NCBI RefSeq assembly: GCF_030027245.1
Contig: NZ_JASERT010000001.1
Location: 2,224,501-2,288,500, forward strand
Source: Asticcacaulis sp. EMRT-3
GTDB lineage: Bacteria; Pseudomonadota; Alphaproteobacteria; Caulobacterales; Caulobacteraceae
Reading direction: 5' to 3'
Length of the DNA stretch: 64,000 nt
Shown: one piece after another, positions 44,175 to 59,519 of the stretch
Numbering within the stretch: position 1 is the first letter of the stretch
How the letters are laid out: each line of letters opens with the position of its first letter
Translations under genes and position numbers: made by a program
Notes under the pieces: generated by a model
The model's database searches: none
Told to the model about the DNA's origin: nothing
Seen by the model: only the letters and a program-made list of their open reading frames with translations

Positions 44175-45074
44175 TTATTTCATTAGCTTACGGCACAAGT
44201 CATCGAGCTGTTCGAGGCTGGCATAGGTCAGGCGCAGCTCCCCCTTGCCGCCACGGTCATCCAGCTTAACCTTGAGGCCCAGCGCCTCCTGCAAATCCTG
44301 TTCGAGCGACAAGGTGTCGGCATCGCCGGAGGACGGCGCTGGTCGCTTCGCCGATTTCGTTTCCGGCGCGTCGCCATCGCGCACCAGAGCCTCGGTCTGA
44401 CGCACCGACAGGCCCTTGTCGATGATAATCTTCGCCAGCCCTTCCGGGTCAGCCGCCGTCACCAGGGCGCGGGCATGGCCCGCCGACAGGCGGCCCTGAA
44501 GGACATGATCCTGCACCGCTTCCGGCAGATTGAGCAGGCGCAGCACATTGGCGATATGGCTGCGGCTCTTGCCGACCACCTGCGCCAGCGCATCCTGGGT
44601 ACGGCCGAAGCGATCCATCAGCACCTTATAGGCGCGCGACTCTTCAATCGGGTTGAGATCGGCGCGCTGCACGTTTTCGATAATGCCGATTTCCAGCACT
44701 TCAAGATCGTCGAGTTCGCGGATGATGACCGGCACCGTATGCAGACCGGCGCGCTGGGCGGCGCGCCAGCGGCGTTCACCGGCGATGATCTGGAATGACC
44801 CGGCCTGACCGGGGGCCGACCGGACGAGGATCGGCTGCAATACCCCCTTCTCGCGGATCGACGACGCCAGTTCCTCGATGTCCGCCTCATTGAACACCCG
44901 GCGCGGCTGATCGGGGTTGCGCACCAGCAATTCAATCGGCTGTTCCAGCCCCTTGCCCGTGTCGCGCCCCGTTTCGCGCGTCGAGGCGGGCGCTTCCGCC
45001 GTCACCGCCGCCGCGCCCTGATCGCCCAGAAGGGCCGACAGGCCGCGACCCAGACCTCTTTGTTTTTCCGACAT
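44175..45074 (-). CDS. parB: Chromosome partitioning protein ParB
   Basis: Centromere-binding CTPase clamp, 299 residues. Start RGLGRGLSALLGD is the ParA-contact N-terminus. CTP-binding motifs include PNDQPRR-type NPDQPRRVF and GERRWRAAQRAG; the helix-turn-helix is QDALAQVVGKSRSHIANVLR. The C-terminal dimerisation domain ends LYASLEQL-like (LTYASLEQLDDLCRKL). It should load at the three parS sites 1.5-4.8 kb upstream. In Caulobacter ParB also anchors to PopZ and recruits MipZ. Confidence 0.97.
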   Translation of the reverse strand: MSEKQRGLGRGLSALLGDQGAAAVTAEAPASTRETGRDTGKGLEQPIELLVRNPDQPRRVFNEADIEELASSIREKGVLQPILVRSAPGQAGSFQIIAGERRWRAAQRAGLHTVPVIIRELDDLEVLEIGIIENVQRADLNPIEESRAYKVLMDRFGRTQDALAQVVGKSRSHIANVLRLLNLPEAVQDHVLQGRLSAGHARALVTAADPEGLAKIIIDKGLSVRQTEALVRDGDAPETKSAKRPAPSSGDADTLSLEQDLQEALGLKVKLDDRGGKGELRLTYASLEQLDDLCRKLMK

Positions 45075-45117: not shown

Positions 45118-45972
45118 TTAAGCTGCCTGGGCCTTGCGTGAGCGTTCACGCGCCACCAGCTCCTTGGCCAGCTTGATATAGGCCTGACTGCCCGAACATT
45201 TCATATCATAGATCAGGGCCGGTTTGCCGAAGGACGGCGCTTCGGACACCCGCACATTGCGCGGTATGACCGTGTCATAAACCAGCTCACCGAAGTGCGA
45301 ACGCACGTCGCGCTCGACATGACCGGACAGGGCGTTGCGCCGGTCGAACATGGTCAGCACAATACCTTGCAGGCCCAGTTTAGGATTGAGACTGCCGCGC
45401 ACCAGATCAATGGTGCGCATCAACTGGCTTAAGCCTTCCAGCGCGAAGAACTCACATTGCAGCGGCACCAGCACGGCATCGGCGGCGCTCATGGCATTGA
45501 CGGTCAGAAGATTGAGCGAAGGCGGGCAATCGATCAATATATAGTCATAGGGCGGAGCGGCCTGATCGAGGCCATCCAGCGCATCGCGCAGCCGGTAGGA
45601 GCGGCGCTCCGCCTGACCCAGTTCGATTTCCACGCCGGACAGATCAGGATCGGACGGCAGCAGCCACAGGCCCGGCACCGATGTTTTAACAGCCGTATCA
45701 CCAATCGGTCTTTGATCGACGATCACATCATAGAGCGAACTGGCGCGTTGCGAGCGCGGTACGCCTAAGCCCGTTGAGGCATTGCCCTGCGGATCAAGAT
45801 CGACCAGCAGGACGCGCTGGCCGATAGCCGCCAGGGCGGTGCCGAGATTGATCGCCGTTGTCGTCTTGCCGACGCCGCCTTTTTGGTTGGCGACGGCCAG
45901 AACGCGGATTTTACGGTCTGCATTGAGCAAAATATCTTTAGACGGCGTTTCTGACGGCAGATTATCGGGCAC
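45118..45972 (-). CDS. parA: Chromosome partitioning ATPase ParA
   Basis: Walker-type ATPase that moves ParB-parS complexes, 284 residues. The deviant Walker A KGGVGKTTTAINLG starts at residue 31; VLLVDLDPQGNASTGLG holds the Walker A' Asp. A 20-residue N-terminal leader precedes the core. The start is a GTG at 45972, overlapping the rsmG 3' end by 11 nt; no in-frame ATG precedes the core. ParB follows after 43 nt. Confidence 0.97.
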   Translation of the reverse strand: MPDNLPSETPSKDILLNADRKIRVLAVANQKGGVGKTTTAINLGTALAAIGQRVLLVDLDPQGNASTGLGVPRSQRASSLYDVIVDQRPIGDTAVKTSVPGLWLLPSDPDLSGVEIELGQAERRSYRLRDALDGLDQAAPPYDYILIDCPPSLNLLTVNAMSAADAVLVPLQCEFFALEGLSQLMRTIDLVRGSLNPKLGLQGIVLTMFDRRNALSGHVERDVRSHFGELVYDTVIPRNVRVSEAPSFGKPALIYDMKCSGSQAYIKLAKELVARERSRKAQAA

Positions 45973-46606
45973 GGCGCAGCCTCTCGATATGGATCAGGCG
46001 ACCACGCGGGTCGCTTAAGGAGTCATAAATCTCTACGTCAAAGTGCCAGCTTTTACCAGCTTCCGCCAGTTCACTTTCGACGTTTTCCCCTTTTAAAAAC
46101 CACGCATCGGCACCATTGCCGATAAGGGTTTCAGCAAAGCCGAGTAGCTTCGTCATCGGGGCCACGGCACGCGCCGTCACCACATCGACCTTGAGGTTAA
46201 TTTTTTCGGCGCGTTCATTAACCACCTTGGCCGGAAGCTCAAGCCGATCCACCACCATTTGCAGAAAGCGGCAGCGCTTGATCAGGGATTCGACCAGCCA
46301 GACGCACGGTTCCGGCCCCTGCGAATGCTTGAGGAGGATGGCCAGCACCAGACCGGGAAAGCCCGCCCCCGCCCCCAGATCGGCCCAGCGGCGCGCATCA
46401 GGGCGGCGGTCGAGCAACTGCGCTGAATCGAGCACATGGCGCGACCAGTAATCGGGCAAGGTGGCGGGCCCGACCAGATTCATCACTTCATTTTGCTCGG
46501 CCAGAATCTCATAAAAGGTTTGCAAATCCTCGATAGCCGCCTGTTTCACGTGAAACACCAGCCGCGCCGCCATCTCGGTCGGCGTCATCCCCATCGCTGC
46601 GTTCAT
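45962..46606 (-). CDS. rsmG: 16S rRNA (guanine-527-N7)-methyltransferase
   Basis: SAM-dependent methyltransferase RsmG (GidB), 214 residues. The SAM-binding loop [16 protein letters not shown] and the [10 protein letters not shown] block are diagnostic; [15 protein letters not shown] follows. The N-terminal peptide VFHVKQA is encoded by a parS site. ATG 46606 overlaps the mnmG stop codon (ATGA). Confidence 0.96.
46542..46557. promoter_or_regulatory. parS site 1 (within rsmG)
   Basis: Perfect TGTTTCACGTGAAACA palindrome, the canonical ParB-binding site, inside rsmG codons for FHVK. Confidence 0.97.
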
Positions 46607-48549: not shown

Positions 48550-49887
48550 CTATTTGCCGATACAGAAGGTCGAAAAAATGATGTCGAGCACGCCTTCGAC
48601 ATCATAGCGGCCAAACAGGGCGTCGAAGCTGGCCAGCGCCGAACGGACATTTTCCGCCGACAGTTCGGGTGCGGCAGACAGCGCACGCGCCGCCTGTTGC
48701 AATTGATCGCGTGCCTCGTTCAGCCGGTCGATATGGCGCTGCCGCGTCGCCGCCGGGAAGGTCTGGTTGGCCAGTGCTGACCCGACCCGCTCTTCAATGG
48801 CCGCCACGCAGTCTTCCAGCCCCTGCCCGAGCGCCACACTGACGGCGAACAGCGATGTTTCACGTGAAACACGTAAACCTGCGATGGCGGCGCGCTCGCC
48901 CTCACCGGCCTCATCGAGCTTGTTAAACACCATCAAATCTTCGTGTCGCCAGTCGTCCGGCAGGGCGGGGTTGGTGGCGTCGATCACCCAGATGCGTAAG
49001 TCGGCCTCGTCGGCCTTGGCGCGTGCCCGCCTGATCCCCTCGGCCTCGACCGGTTCGGCGGTTTCGCGCAAACCCGCCGTGTCGTAGAGCAGCACGGAAT
49101 AGGGCCCGACGCGGAGTTGCGCCTCGATGATGTCGCGTGTCGTACCGGCAATCGGCGTGACAATGGCAGCCTCGGCCTTCAGCAGCGCATTGAACAGGCT
49201 CGATTTACCGGCATTGGGTTCGCCAAGGATAACGATGCGGTAGCCTTCGCGGATCTGCCGTCCGCGCTGCGCATCGCTTACCGCAGCGCCCAGCCGCAGC
49301 GCCAGACCGTCGATGCGTGCGCGAATGGCCTCGGCCAGTTCGTCGGGCAGGTCTTCATCCGGGAAGTCGATATAGACTTCGAGGCGCGCCAGCAGATCGA
49401 GCAGTTCGGCGCGCCACTGTTCATATTGCGCTTTCAGCCCGCCGCCAAGCTGGGTCAGGGCCTGTCTGCGCTGGGCTTCCGTTTCGGCATCGACCAGATC
49501 GGCAATCGCCTCAGCCTGAGTCAGGTCGAGCTTGCCATTTTCCAGCGCTCGCCGTGAAAACTCACCTGGCCCGGCCAGCTTCAGACCCAGTTCGGTCAGG
49601 ATGGCGTAAAGCCGATCGAGAATGGCCCGTGCGCCATGCACATGCAGCTCAACGCACTCTTCGCCGGTAAAGCTGTGCGGCGCTTTGAACCATAGCACCA
49701 CGGCCTGATCAATCAACTCACCCTGATAGATGAGCGGCGTATAGCTGGCGTGACGCGGCTGCAAAACCTTGTCCGTCAGGTGGCCGACGGCCTCAAGCGC
49801 GCGCGGCCCGGACAGACGCACCACCGCCACCCCAGCGCGGCCCTGCGCGCTGGCCAGGGCAAAAATCGTCTGTTTCACGTGAAACAC
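48550..49887 (-). CDS. mnmE: tRNA modification GTPase MnmE
   Basis: GTPase partner of MnmG, 445 residues from the GTG at 49887. G1 motif GEPNAGKSS at 222-230, G2/G3 TPIAGTTRD and DTAGLRE, and the catalytic C-terminal CIGK (last four residues, family CxGK). The start is ambiguous: GTG 49887 gives MFHVKQTIFALA, GTG 49878 gives VKQTIFALA, which matches usual MnmE starts better. Both lie in or against parS site 3. Confidence 0.96.
   Translation of the reverse strand: MFHVKQTIFALASAQGRAGVAVVRLSGPRALEAVGHLTDKVLQPRHASYTPLIYQGELIDQAVVLWFKAPHSFTGEECVELHVHGARAILDRLYAILTELGLKLAGPGEFSRRALENGKLDLTQAEAIADLVDAETEAQRRQALTQLGGGLKAQYEQWRAELLDLLARLEVYIDFPDEDLPDELAEAIRARIDGLALRLGAAVSDAQRGRQIREGYRIVILGEPNAGKSSLFNALLKAEAAIVTPIAGTTRDIIEAQLRVGPYSVLLYDTAGLRETAEPVEAEGIRRARAKADEADLRIWVIDATNPALPDDWRHEDLMVFNKLDEAGEGERAAIAGLRVSRETSLFAVSVALGQGLEDCVAAIEERVGSALANQTFPAATRQRHIDRLNEARDQLQQAARALSAAPELSAENVRSALASFDALFGRYDVEGVLDIIFSTFCIGK
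48856..48871. promoter_or_regulatory. parS site 2 (within mnmE)
   Basis: Perfect TGTTTCACGTGAAACA in a different reading frame from the other sites; encodes VSRET in the MnmE GTPase domain region. Confidence 0.97.
49871..49886. promoter_or_regulatory. parS site 3 (at mnmE start)
   Basis: Perfect TGTTTCACGTGAAACA that overlaps the mnmE initiation codons; it lies 15 kb or less from the other landmarks and about 5 kb from the predicted origin. Confidence 0.97.
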
Positions 49888-53652: not shown

Positions 53653-54696
53653 TCAGGCTCTGATCCTTTGCAAGGCCTGCTCGACATGGGCTATCGGCGT
53701 ATCGGGAAAAATGCCGTGGCCGAGATTGAAAATAAACGGCCCCTGCCCCCAGGCTTGCCTTATACGTTCGATCTGGTCATCCAGAGCTTTGCCGCCGGAA
53801 CGTAAGGCCACCGGATCGAGCGCGCCCTGGATCGTCACCTTCTTTTGCAGTTCCACACCCAGCTTCAGCGGCGTGGCCGTGCCGAGCCCCAGAGCCTGCA
53901 CCTCAACCGCGTCGATATAGTCGTGGCAGCGCGCCTCAGCGCCACGCGGAAAGCCGATGATCGGCAAGGTCACACCCAGTTCGCGCACGCGCCGGATCAG
54001 TCGGATATGCGGCTGAATGATCAGTTGATCGAACAGAGGATCGGGAAAGCCCTCCGCCCAGCTCTCGAAGATTTTCAGCACCTGCGCCCCGTGATCAGCC
54101 TGCATCTTCAGATACTGGGCCGAGGCCTCGATGACGATGTCGATCAGCGATGCCACAAGCTCCGGCTGCTCATAAACGAAGGCGCGGATCAGGCTGCGGT
54201 CATGCGCCTTCTTGCCATTGAGCATATAGGTCATCACCGTCCACGGCCCGCCGCAAAAGCCGATCAGCGTGGTGCGGGCCCGATCAAGCTGCGCCGCCAC
54301 GCGCGCAACCGTTTCACCAACATTTTTCAAAGCCTCGCCCGCCTGCCCGGCCTTGTCACGCATAGCCTCTAACGATGGCAGGTCACCGAGGATCGGCCCT
54401 TCACCCGCCGCAAAGGTCAGATCCTGACCGAGCGCCAGCGGGATCATCAGGATGTCCGAAAAGAGAATGGCGGCGTCGAAACCGAAACGCCGTATCGGCT
54501 GCAAGGTGGCCTCAGCCGCCTTTTCGGGATTGAGACAGAAATCAACAAAGCCCGAGGTGGAGGCACGTAACTCACGGTATTCCGGCAGGTAGCGCCCGGC
54601 CTGTCGCATGAACCAGACCGGCGGCGTTGTCAGGGTCTGGCCCGAAAGCGCGTTTAACAGAGGGGCCGCAACAATCGATGCCAGAGGAAGGGTCAT
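53653..54696 (-). CDS. hemE: Uroporphyrinogen decarboxylase
   Basis: Decarboxylates uroporphyrinogen III to coproporphyrinogen III, 347 residues. The signature PPVWFMRQAGRYLPEYRELR is at the N-terminus and GFCGGPWTVMTYMLNG midway. Adjacent to the predicted origin, as hemE is in Caulobacter crescentus, where its promoter overlaps Cori. Start codon ATG 54696. Confidence 0.97.
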   Translation of the reverse strand: MTLPLASIVAAPLLNALSGQTLTTPPVWFMRQAGRYLPEYRELRASTSGFVDFCLNPEKAAEATLQPIRRFGFDAAILFSDILMIPLALGQDLTFAAGEGPILGDLPSLEAMRDKAGQAGEALKNVGETVARVAAQLDRARTTLIGFCGGPWTVMTYMLNGKKAHDRSLIRAFVYEQPELVASLIDIVIEASAQYLKMQADHGAQVLKIFESWAEGFPDPLFDQLIIQPHIRLIRRVRELGVTLPIIGFPRGAEARCHDYIDAVEVQALGLGTATPLKLGVELQKKVTIQGALDPVALRSGGKALDDQIERIRQAWGQGPFIFNLGHGIFPDTPIAHVEQALQRIRA

Positions 54697-55222
54697 AAAG
54701 TCAACTCGTATGAAAAGCGCCTTCCTTCATGACCTATACTAAAAGAAAAGAAAAGGGTTTGAAGTGGTTATAGAGGGCCGGACAAGTCGGAAAACCGGCG
54801 CAGATTTGGCGCGATTCACGGCTTTTTCACAAGCGGCAGCGGACAGGACAAGCGCCTTTTCACAGCCTGGGGAGAGCGTGGATAATTAACCAAATATTAG
54901 GATTGCTTAAGAATTCCTTAACGCACCTCCAGCAGAGCCTGTGCAGGGTTAATGAAAGATTAACTTACGCACATGGTCACCGATCGTCTTTATACATTTT
55001 TAACTTTTTGCCGAAGACCGGGACAAAATGCCGCCTTATCCACCCCTATCCACCGGCGAACCGGCTTTTGGCTTTTTCGCCCCAGGTTTTCCCAAACAGC
55101 ACCCGCAACTGTCCCCAAAACAACGCACATATTTTTTGCATTTTCAGGCGGACCTTATTTTTGCGCGGGCGTGACGCGCGAAAATTGGTTATGAACCTGC
55201 ATATATCTGAAAGGTTCAGCCC
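54697..55222. other. Predicted chromosomal origin of replication (oriC/Cori-like)
   Basis: 526-nt AT-rich gap between hemE and the PPSR gene, the location of Cori in Caulobacter. CtrA-type boxes: TTAA-N7-TTAG (54886-54900), TTAA-N7-TTAA (54907-54921) and TTAA-N7-TTAA (54949-54963). DnaA-like boxes: reverse TTATCCACG (54877-54885), TTATCCACC (55036-55044), CTATCCACC (55046-55054). TCCCCA hexamers like the Caulobacter W-box: reverse at 54868-54873 and forward at 55112-55117. One GANTC methylation site (54813-54817). The first DnaA box abuts the first CtrA box. No gene. A 7-bp TGAACCT/AGGTTCA repeat precedes the PPSR start. Confidence 0.9.
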
Positions 55223-56089
55223 ATGGTCGCCCTGCCGCCCAAGTCATCGCTTTCGAAAATCGGCACCTATTTCCACGTCCACCTTGTCTCCGATTCGACC
55301 GGCGAAACCCTGAATGCCCTGGCCAAGGCGGCGGCGGCGCGTTTTGAGGGTATCCTGCCGATTGAGCATATCTATGTGCTGATCCGTTCGGAAAAGCAGC
55401 TAGAGCGCAGTTTGCAGGAAATCGAGAGCTTTCCCGGCATTGTGTTGCACACCATGGTCGATGTCGAACTGCGCACCATGCTGGAAACACGCTGCCGCGA
55501 ACTCGATATTCCGGCGATTGGCGTACTCGATTCGCTGGTGGTGGCCTTTTCGCGTCATCTGGGCGCGGCTGTCTCCAAGCGGGTGGGCGCGCAGCATAAT
55601 CTCGACAATGAATATTTCGAGCGCATTGAGGCGCTCAACTATGCCATCGCCCATGATGACGGCGCGATGGCCGACAAGGTGCGTCAGGCCGATGTGGTGC
55701 TGGTCGGGGTGTCGCGCACCTCAAAGACACCGACCTGTATCTATCTGGCGCATCGCGGCATCAAGGCGGCCAATATTCCGCTCGTCCCCGGCCATGAACC
55801 GCCCGAAGAACTCGATCAGCAGGATGTGCCGTTGATCGTCGGCCTGATCGCCTCGCCGGAACGGCTGATCCAGATCCGCAAGAACCGCCTGCTAACGCTT
55901 AATGACGACAAGCCCTCCTCCTATACCGATCAGGAAGCGGTGCGCGAAGAAATTATCCGCGCGCGCCGGCTGTTTGAGCGCAAGGGCTGGCCGGTGATCG
56001 ATGTGACGCGGCGCTCGATCGAGGAAACCTCGGCCACCATTATCAGCCTGCTCAATGAAAAACGTACCGGCAGGCTTGGTGGTATATAG
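55223..56089 (+). CDS. PPSR-family kinase-phosphorylase (DUF299)
   Basis: Bifunctional regulator of pyruvate phosphate dikinase or PEP synthase, 288 residues. P-loop-like VGVSRTSKTPTCIYLAHRG near residue 155 and terminal DVTRRSIEETSATI are hallmarks. In Caulobacter the gene next to Cori (RP001) belongs to this family as I recall. ATG 55223 follows a hairpin that partly covers the AAGG ribosome binding site. Confidence 0.92.
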   Translation: MVALPPKSSLSKIGTYFHVHLVSDSTGETLNALAKAAAARFEGILPIEHIYVLIRSEKQLERSLQEIESFPGIVLHTMVDVELRTMLETRCRELDIPAIGVLDSLVVAFSRHLGAAVSKRVGAQHNLDNEYFERIEALNYAIAHDDGAMADKVRQADVVLVGVSRTSKTPTCIYLAHRGIKAANIPLVPGHEPPEELDQQDVPLIVGLIASPERLIQIRKNRLLTLNDDKPSSYTDQEAVREEIIRARRLFERKGWPVIDVTRRSIEETSATIISLLNEKRTGRLGGI

Positions 56090-58985: not shown

Positions 58986-59519
58986 TCAGGCATTCCCGGC
59001 CACGGGCCCGCCATTGGCGCGTTGTGCTTCGAGCTGGGCGCGTTGCTGCATATAGAGCGTGCCGAAATCGATCGGATCGAGATAGAAGGGCGGGGTAAAG
59101 CCGCCATCTGCCGTGGCGTCGGCCACGATGCGGCGGGCGAACGGGAACAGATAGCGCGGGCATTCGACCAGCAGCGTCGGCTCCACCAGGGCTTCGGGCA
59201 TGTTGCCGAGCTGGAACAGGCCGCCATACACCAGTTCGATGGCGAACATCGCGCCTTCGCTGGTCGAGGCCTTGACGTTGAGCTTGATATCGACTTCGAA
59301 CAGGCCATCGGGGCGACCCTTGGCGCTCATCTCGACGCCGAGATCGACATCGGGGCGCGATTCCACGCGCAGGCTATTGGGGGCGCGCGGATTTTCAAAC
59401 GAAAAATCGCGGATGAACTGAGCCAGAACCTGCATCTGGGCGGCGGGCGGCTGCTGAGACAGGTCGGCGTTCTGATCGGGGTTTTGTGCGGCGGGGGTCG
59501 TCGTATCGTTATCGGTCAT
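58986..59519 (-). CDS. secB: Protein-export chaperone SecB
   Basis: Tetrameric export chaperone, 177 residues. Core [20 protein letters not shown] and the [20 protein letters not shown] segment are diagnostic; C-terminus binds SecA in relatives but here ends NGGPVAGNA. Divergent from the Tim44-like gene, sharing a 184-nt promoter region. Confidence 0.95.

Follow-up and report, generated by a model that had tools for sequence, protein, structure and literature searches.

Much of what is known about CtrA-controlled origins rests on one species. In Caulobacter crescentus, according to the parts of the published accounts that we draw on (PMC1914354, PMC4285127, PMC6399470, PMC4468827), the origin (Cori) lies between hemE and a COG1806 gene with parS within about 8 kb, and it combines TTAA-N7-TTAA CtrA boxes with adjacent weak DnaA sites and TCCCCA W-boxes. 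Binding of CtrA keeps DnaA off Cori (sections of PMC4468827 and PMC4285127). The same sections of PMC4468827 present the view that strong CtrA sites are combined with weak DnaA sites at Cori, mention promoter activity inside Cori, and report only a mild disturbance of the cell cycle when all five CtrA sites were weakened. Origins between hemE and COG1806 were also proposed for Rickettsia, by the same criteria (excerpts of PMC1914354); these share the flanking genes with our locus, and it is the genes that we compare. Our literature search found no paper on an Asticcacaulis origin, which is not to say that none is in print, and the portions of PMC8116508, PMC3973325, and PMC6169604 that we consulted contain nothing on it.

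We analyzed a 64,000-nucleotide stretch of the genome of Asticcacaulis sp. EMRT-3 (the window; positions 2224501-2288500 of contig C1). The genome is 3.32 Mb in 4 contigs, and C1 is 2,855,210 bp. In the window, hemE and the gene for a PPDK/PEPS regulator (PPSR) diverge from an intergenic gap (Table 1), and a preliminary description, made from the letters of the sequence, had placed a chromosome origin with CtrA sites there, as at Cori. The family matches of the two genes bear out this setting. We propose that the gap is the chromosomal replication origin of this Asticcacaulis species and is orthologous in place to Cori; from the sequence evidence, we put the probability of this at about 0.92. 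The proposal is well supported by a unique pair of CtrA boxes, by parS and parAB nearby, by a dif-like site roughly opposite, by the conservation of the gap, and by the presence of a CtrA gene (412 bits, against a family cut-off of 350) and of one DnaA gene. Judged by its sequence the origin is clear, and it is expected for the family.

Table 1. Features in and near the hemE/PPSR gap (window coordinates; counts are genomes in the 25-row Asticcacaulis alignment; likeness is resemblance to a DnaA box, ranked among 874 position-strands).
Feature	Coordinates	Strand	Remarks
parB	44175..45074	-	PF02195, PF17762, PF23552
parA	45118..45972	-	PF13614, 209 bits; named ParA from its position beside parB
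parS GTTTCACGTGAAAC	46543..46556	.	exact
parS GTTTCACGTGAAAC	48857..48870	.	exact
parS GTTTCACGTGAAAC	49872..49885	.	exact
hemE	53653..54696	-	TIGR01464, 345 bits
hemE/PPSR intergenic gap, putative chromosome origin	54697..55222	.	526 bp
Weak DnaA-like box TTTTTCACA	54823..54831	+	likeness rank 3; CACA 25/25
Promoter -35-like TTCACA	54859..54864	+	from window scan, TTCACA-N16-GATAAT
Weak DnaA-like / W-box CTCTCCCCA	54868..54876	-	likeness rank 6; genus forms ATTCCCACA, TCATTCACA, CTTTTCACA
DnaA box of the preliminary description, TTATCCACG	54877..54885	-	likeness rank 5 of 874; TTATCC 24/25, next AC 1/25
Conserved run GGATAATTAACCAAAT	54880..54895	.	longest conserved run in the gap; invariant over 16 consecutive columns in 4 species; also the longest run at >=80% in 25 genomes
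Promoter -10-like GATAAT	54881..54886	+	overlaps CtrA box 1 by one base; 16-nt spacer, 10/12 matches
Most AT-rich 40 bp of gap, candidate unwinding region	54882..54921	.	22.5% GC; covers CtrA boxes 1-2
CtrA box 1, TTAACCAAATATTAG	54886..54900	+	ends TTAG; left half TTAA 23/25, right half variable
CtrA box 2, TTAAGAATTCCTTAA	54907..54921	+	exact TTAA-N7-TTAA; left TTAA 24/25, right TTAA exact 16/25
CtrA box 3, TTAATGAAAGATTAA	54949..54963	+	exact TTAA-N7-TTAA; both halves 25/25
Weak DnaA-like box TTACGCACA	54965..54973	+	one base from CtrA box 3; likeness rank 4; CACA 25/25
Weak candidate CtrA box TTTATACATTTTTAA	54989..55003	+	1 mismatch; <=1 mismatch in 5/25
DnaA-like TTATCCACC, not conserved	55036..55044	+	likeness rank 24 of 874
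DnaA-like CTATCCACC	55046..55054	+	likeness rank 7
W-box type CTGTCCCCA	55109..55117	+	likeness rank 2; TCCCCA (55112) 17/25
Conserved CACA element, faintly DnaA-like	55121..55129	+	CACA 25/25; likeness rank 12
PPSR gene (COG1806)	55223..56089	+	PRK05339, 338 bits

The best named matches to HemE are from Asticcacaulis sp. AC466 and AC402 (82% identity each) and A. endophyticus (76%). The divergent gap is present in all 25 Asticcacaulis genomes (element counts for the genus were read from all 25 rows of the gap alignment) and at 78 of 80 named loci. The two loci left out (L063 and L071) had no PPSR that we could find; L042 was retained despite a partial PPSR, and with the window this gives 79 gaps. 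At 48% GC, against 60% for the window, the gap is more AT-rich than its surroundings.

The three CtrA boxes within 78 nt that the preliminary description had listed are all there: two are exact and one ends in TTAG. Dinucleotide shuffling of the gap, repeated 20,000 times, gave two or more exact boxes 6 times, three or more TTAA-N7-TTAR boxes 2 times, and three or more matches to TATCCAC 0 times, so by this measure the cluster of CtrA and DnaA-like sites far exceeds chance. In the whole genome there are 38 exact CtrA boxes (versus 21 for the backward-read pattern), and the gap has the sole pair under 800 nt apart: its two exact boxes start 42 nt apart, and the next-closest pair is 818 nt apart. 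We assessed uniqueness by the exact CtrA pairs; the genome-wide list of DnaA sites gives 100 of 182 places. In the 25 genus gaps together there are 57 exact CtrA boxes, versus 0.7 expected in shuffles. These CtrA and DnaA assignments are motif matches, that is, predicted sites.

The genome has three parS sites at up to one mismatch. All three are exact and all lie 5-8 kb from the gap; a control gave 0. (A scan at up to three mismatches is not significant by itself, as 25 of 100 shuffles reach three matches; the exact genome-wide result is the evidence that counts.) All three sites are inside the coding sequence of rsmG or mnmE; two code for FHVKQ, close to the start of RsmG and MnmE.

GC skew fits less well. 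We sampled C1 in 60 stretches of 20 kb, which together cover about 42% of the contig. The preliminary description expected a skew minimum at the gap, and this is only roughly so: the sampled maximum, at 0.83-0.86 Mb, is where it should be opposite the gap (0.852 Mb), but the sampled cumulative minimum is at about 2.42-2.45 Mb, or 140-170 kb from the gap (2.279 Mb), which counts against the origin reading. Between 1.97 and 2.45 Mb of C1, on both sides of the gap, there is little skew and its sign is mixed. Inversions of segments near the origin could account for such an offset, but this is a guess. The window taken alone has its cumulative minimum at 59,012, about 4 kb beyond the gap; this is local noise on a falling slope. 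The position of dnaA also counts against us: the genome has a single DnaA gene, at C1:2080143-2080625, about 199 kb from the gap. The dnaA gene of C. crescentus is close to its origin.

Could the cluster instead be a divergent hemE/PPSR promoter region under CtrA control, with the origin elsewhere, for example at the skew minimum or at dnaA? Besides the displaced minimum, a CtrA box and ATATCCACA start 73 nt apart at 2.441 Mb, and two more places have one box of each kind: 31.0 kb, with a distance of 125 nt, and 2.753 Mb, with 182 nt. Each of these places has just one box of each kind, and it is the present gap that parS and parAB adjoin, so we think an origin elsewhere is very improbable. We rejected 2.441 Mb, near the skew minimum, where the single CtrA box and the single NTATCCAC are located as a CoaBC-like ORF ends, ahead of a dUTPase-like ORF (both named by eye from their translations). 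The places at 31.0 kb and 2.753 Mb, each with a single CtrA box and a single NTATCCAC, were rejected as well, and so was the dnaA locus, which in the stretch examined has one CtrA box but lacks NTATCCAC.

A dif-like site at 0.813 Mb on C1 is roughly opposite the gap, which, provided that C1 is a closed circle, would give replication arms of about 1.39 and 1.47 Mb. The E. coli dif sequence was of little help: in about 116 kb around the skew maximum, its best match had 16 of 22 arm bases, equal to three other stretches and hence background, and an E. coli-like pattern was not found in the whole genome at up to three mismatches. We took a pattern from the best scan match, so its match in this genome is circular. 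In 30 relatives, at up to two mismatches, this pattern was found in 17 of 18 other genomes of the genus, with 1-3 places per genome, and, among 12 more distant relatives, in 4; the backward-read control had no match in the 31 genomes. This recurrence is evidence for a dif site but does not prove it. The 250-kb contig C2 carries another dif-like site (C2:70807-70832) that differs from the pattern by one mismatch, and this suggests a second replicon resolved by XerCD; several genomes of the genus have two or three dif-like places on different contigs. A search of the genome for the RepC family (PF03428) gave no match, and the control for this search was positive in just 1 of 14 genomes.

The arrangement differs in detail from Cori, as the preliminary description had said. 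The G-box TGATCCACA is in 0 of the 25 genus gaps, and TGATCCAC is in 15 of the 79 family gaps but in none of the 4 from Asticcacaulis. The window gap has two exact CtrA boxes and one near one, versus four exact ones in C. vibrioides (L032); counting boxes with one mismatch, it has two exact and two others, not the five of C. crescentus. No match to the IHF consensus WATCAANNNNTTR was found in the gap at up to one mismatch; this result covers the consensus used, not the C. crescentus site itself.

The pair that most resembles the G-box/CtrA pair of Caulobacter was missing from the preliminary description. On the minus strand, CtrA box 3 and its CACA element read TGTG-N6-TTAA-N7-TTAA. Eight Caulobacter-like loci carry TGTGGATCATCCGTTAA-N7-TTAA (a ninth has one base different), which contains the published G-box TGATCCACA in reverse (excerpts of PMC4285127). 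By sequence, the nearest parallel is thus box 3 with TTACGCACA at 54965, and not the pair at 54877 to which the preliminary description pointed. Across the family, TGTG-N3-14-CtrA in the same orientation is found in 28 of the 79 gaps (0.0 expected in shuffles; the opposite orientation is found in 8), so 51 gaps are without that form. Where the module sits varies: in all 4 Asticcacaulis loci it is mid-gap, 185-267 nt from PPSR, whereas in 14 other loci, including 9 with TGTGGATCA, it is 22-56 nt from PPSR. Brevundimonas is closer to Asticcacaulis, with TGTG-N7-TTAA-N7-TTAA at 170-245 nt from PPSR in eight loci (7 titled Brevundimonas). Also, GGATAATCCTTAAC is found in 3 of the 79 gaps, two of them titled Brevundimonas. 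Brevundimonas differs in having 0-2 exact CtrA boxes, and none of the 75 gaps from outside Asticcacaulis, Brevundimonas included, contains GGATAATTAAC.

All three DnaA-type boxes that had been listed are in place: TTATCCAC occurs at 54878-54885 on the minus strand (as a 9-mer, 54877-54885, directly against 54886) and at 55036-55043 on the plus strand, and the third, CTATCCAC at 55046-55053, has one mismatch. The reverse TCCCCA at 54868-54873 is also as described, and there is a second W-box that had gone unmentioned, at 55112-55117 (plus strand). When we scored DnaA-box likeness over 874 position-strands in the 25 genomes, seven stood out, with means of 2.16-2.84 mismatches (the next had 3.28): 54823+, 54868-, 54877-, 54965+, 55046+, 55109+, and 54886+. 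The last of these is CtrA box 1 itself, which warns that likeness to a DnaA box is not binding. The other six are weak DnaA-like sites on either side of the CtrA boxes. For none of the seven do more than 4 of the 25 genomes come within one mismatch of TTATCCACA. Two CACA-type sites that are better conserved, 54823 and 54965, were absent from the earlier list. All 25 genomes keep a CACA core at each of 54828, 54970, and 55126. This pattern fits the idea of strong CtrA sites paired with weak DnaA sites, with predicted weak sites that differ from those of Cori.

The junction between the minus-strand box at 54877-54885 and CtrA box 1 at 54886-54900 needs more discussion. The two sites do abut, and the preliminary description read the junction as a place where DnaA and CtrA would compete. 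It pointed at the right spot, as GGATAATTAACCAAAT is the longest conserved run of the origin and, among the genomes drawn, is confined to the genus: its first 15 bases are single-copy and about 360 nt or less from PPSR in 14 of the 16 Asticcacaulis genomes drawn, and are absent from the 103 other family genomes drawn (21 other genera). What is conserved, however, is GGATAA; the AC that would complete the DnaA box is kept in 1 of 25 genomes, and a promoter -10 fits at least equally well.

One reading is that 54877-54885 is a real DnaA box that competes directly with CtrA at 54886-54900, like the G-boxes of Caulobacter. TTATCC makes up the 5' two thirds of a DnaA box and, immediately next to the CtrA box, is kept in 24 of 25 genomes, the site ranks fifth in DnaA-box likeness, and both G-boxes of C. 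crescentus are near or over CtrA sites (sections of PMC4468827). But TTATCCAC is found here in the window genome alone, while the three CACA cores are kept throughout, and this makes direct competition at this site doubtful.

The other reading, to which we give about even odds, is that TTCACA-N16-GATAAT drives rightward transcription across the CtrA boxes, that CtrA at box 1, over the -10 and the start site, silences it, and that DnaA uses the other, weaker boxes. GATAAT is kept in 24 of 25 genomes, and the window site has 10 of 12 matches to a promoter. In 20 of the 25 genomes there is a -35 with five of six matches (TTCACA or TTAACA) 15-19 nt away, with a spacer of 16 nt in 15 of these and 17 nt in 5; the remaining 5 genomes have a -35 with four of six matches, and 2.7% of shuffles reach five or more. 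On the other hand, the -35 was sought after the -10 had been noticed, the shuffles preserve single-base content only, and the 25 genomes are related, so the 20 are not 20 independent cases. Not every genome has the five-of-six -35 with a 16-nt spacer, the -35 lies partly on CACA/TTAA sequence whose conservation may have other reasons, and the scan of the window gave 2 sites that share one -10, versus 0.5 expected. Since the -35 was found post hoc and in related genomes, we consider the promoter evidence suggestive and not proof. A promoter here is a rival on mechanism and is compatible with the gap being the origin; the site could be both a promoter and a DnaA box.

Two related genomes of the genus, L173 and L174, have TTTACC instead of TTAACC in CtrA box 1 and retain GGATAATT. 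This change leans towards selection on the -10 over the CtrA half-site.

Tentatively, the core of the Asticcacaulis origin may be GGATAATTAACCAAAT, a genus-specific element that fuses a promoter -10 to a CtrA box through shared bases. CtrA would shut the origin mainly by repressing transcription and opposing melting at the AT-rich segment, and DnaA would act via weak sites only, unlike the G-box/CtrA competition of Caulobacter. We think this combination less likely than not. Our main reading of the origin starts from its layout: the three CtrA boxes are in a row over and next to the 40 bp with the highest AT content in the gap, with weak DnaA-like boxes on both sides, and the promoter-like sequence is conserved in the genus and its -10 runs into CtrA box 1. 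In 21 of 25 genomes, the 40-mer richest in AT falls over boxes 1 and 2, partly because the TTAA boxes are themselves AT-rich. On this main reading, phosphorylated CtrA would bind boxes 1-3 in a non-replicating cell, where it would cover the promoter and the AT-rich segment and exclude DnaA from the neighboring weak boxes. Once CtrA is removed, DnaA-ATP would assemble over the weak boxes, the AT-rich segment would melt, perhaps aided by transcription through it, and replication would start.

What the genus alignment adds to an expected origin is a possible fused promoter/CtrA element, putative DnaA sites that are all weak, and a further CtrA box that appears to turn over. In the 25 origins, CtrA box 3 with its CACA element and the -10/CtrA fusion are kept, while the further CtrA box and the exact DnaA boxes turn over. 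These are concrete sites at which different modes of CtrA action (exclusion of DnaA, block of transcription, or prevention of melting) might be separated.

The further CtrA box (up to one mismatch) is upstream of the others, aligned at 54840 in 14 genomes and at 54847 in 5, or 19 of 25 in all. The window genome is among the six that lack it. On the tree, its turnover needs two changes, although the six lacking genomes as one clade are not rejected (p-AU 0.136). The CtrA-like box at 54989 is confined to 5 of these six genomes. We do not claim that it compensates, because matches with one mismatch are common and the stretch may be shared by descent.

Upstream of the junction, positions 54856-54876 form a palindrome (CACAG-C-CTGTG) in which two DnaA-like boxes are face to face. 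In the window one arm is CTGGG, and at 54868-54876 (minus strand) the window is alone among the 25 genomes in having CTGGG in place of NTGTG. The perfect palindrome TTCCCACAGCCTGTGGGAA is found in 3 of the 25 genomes, and a looser form is found in 13, including those 3 and the window.
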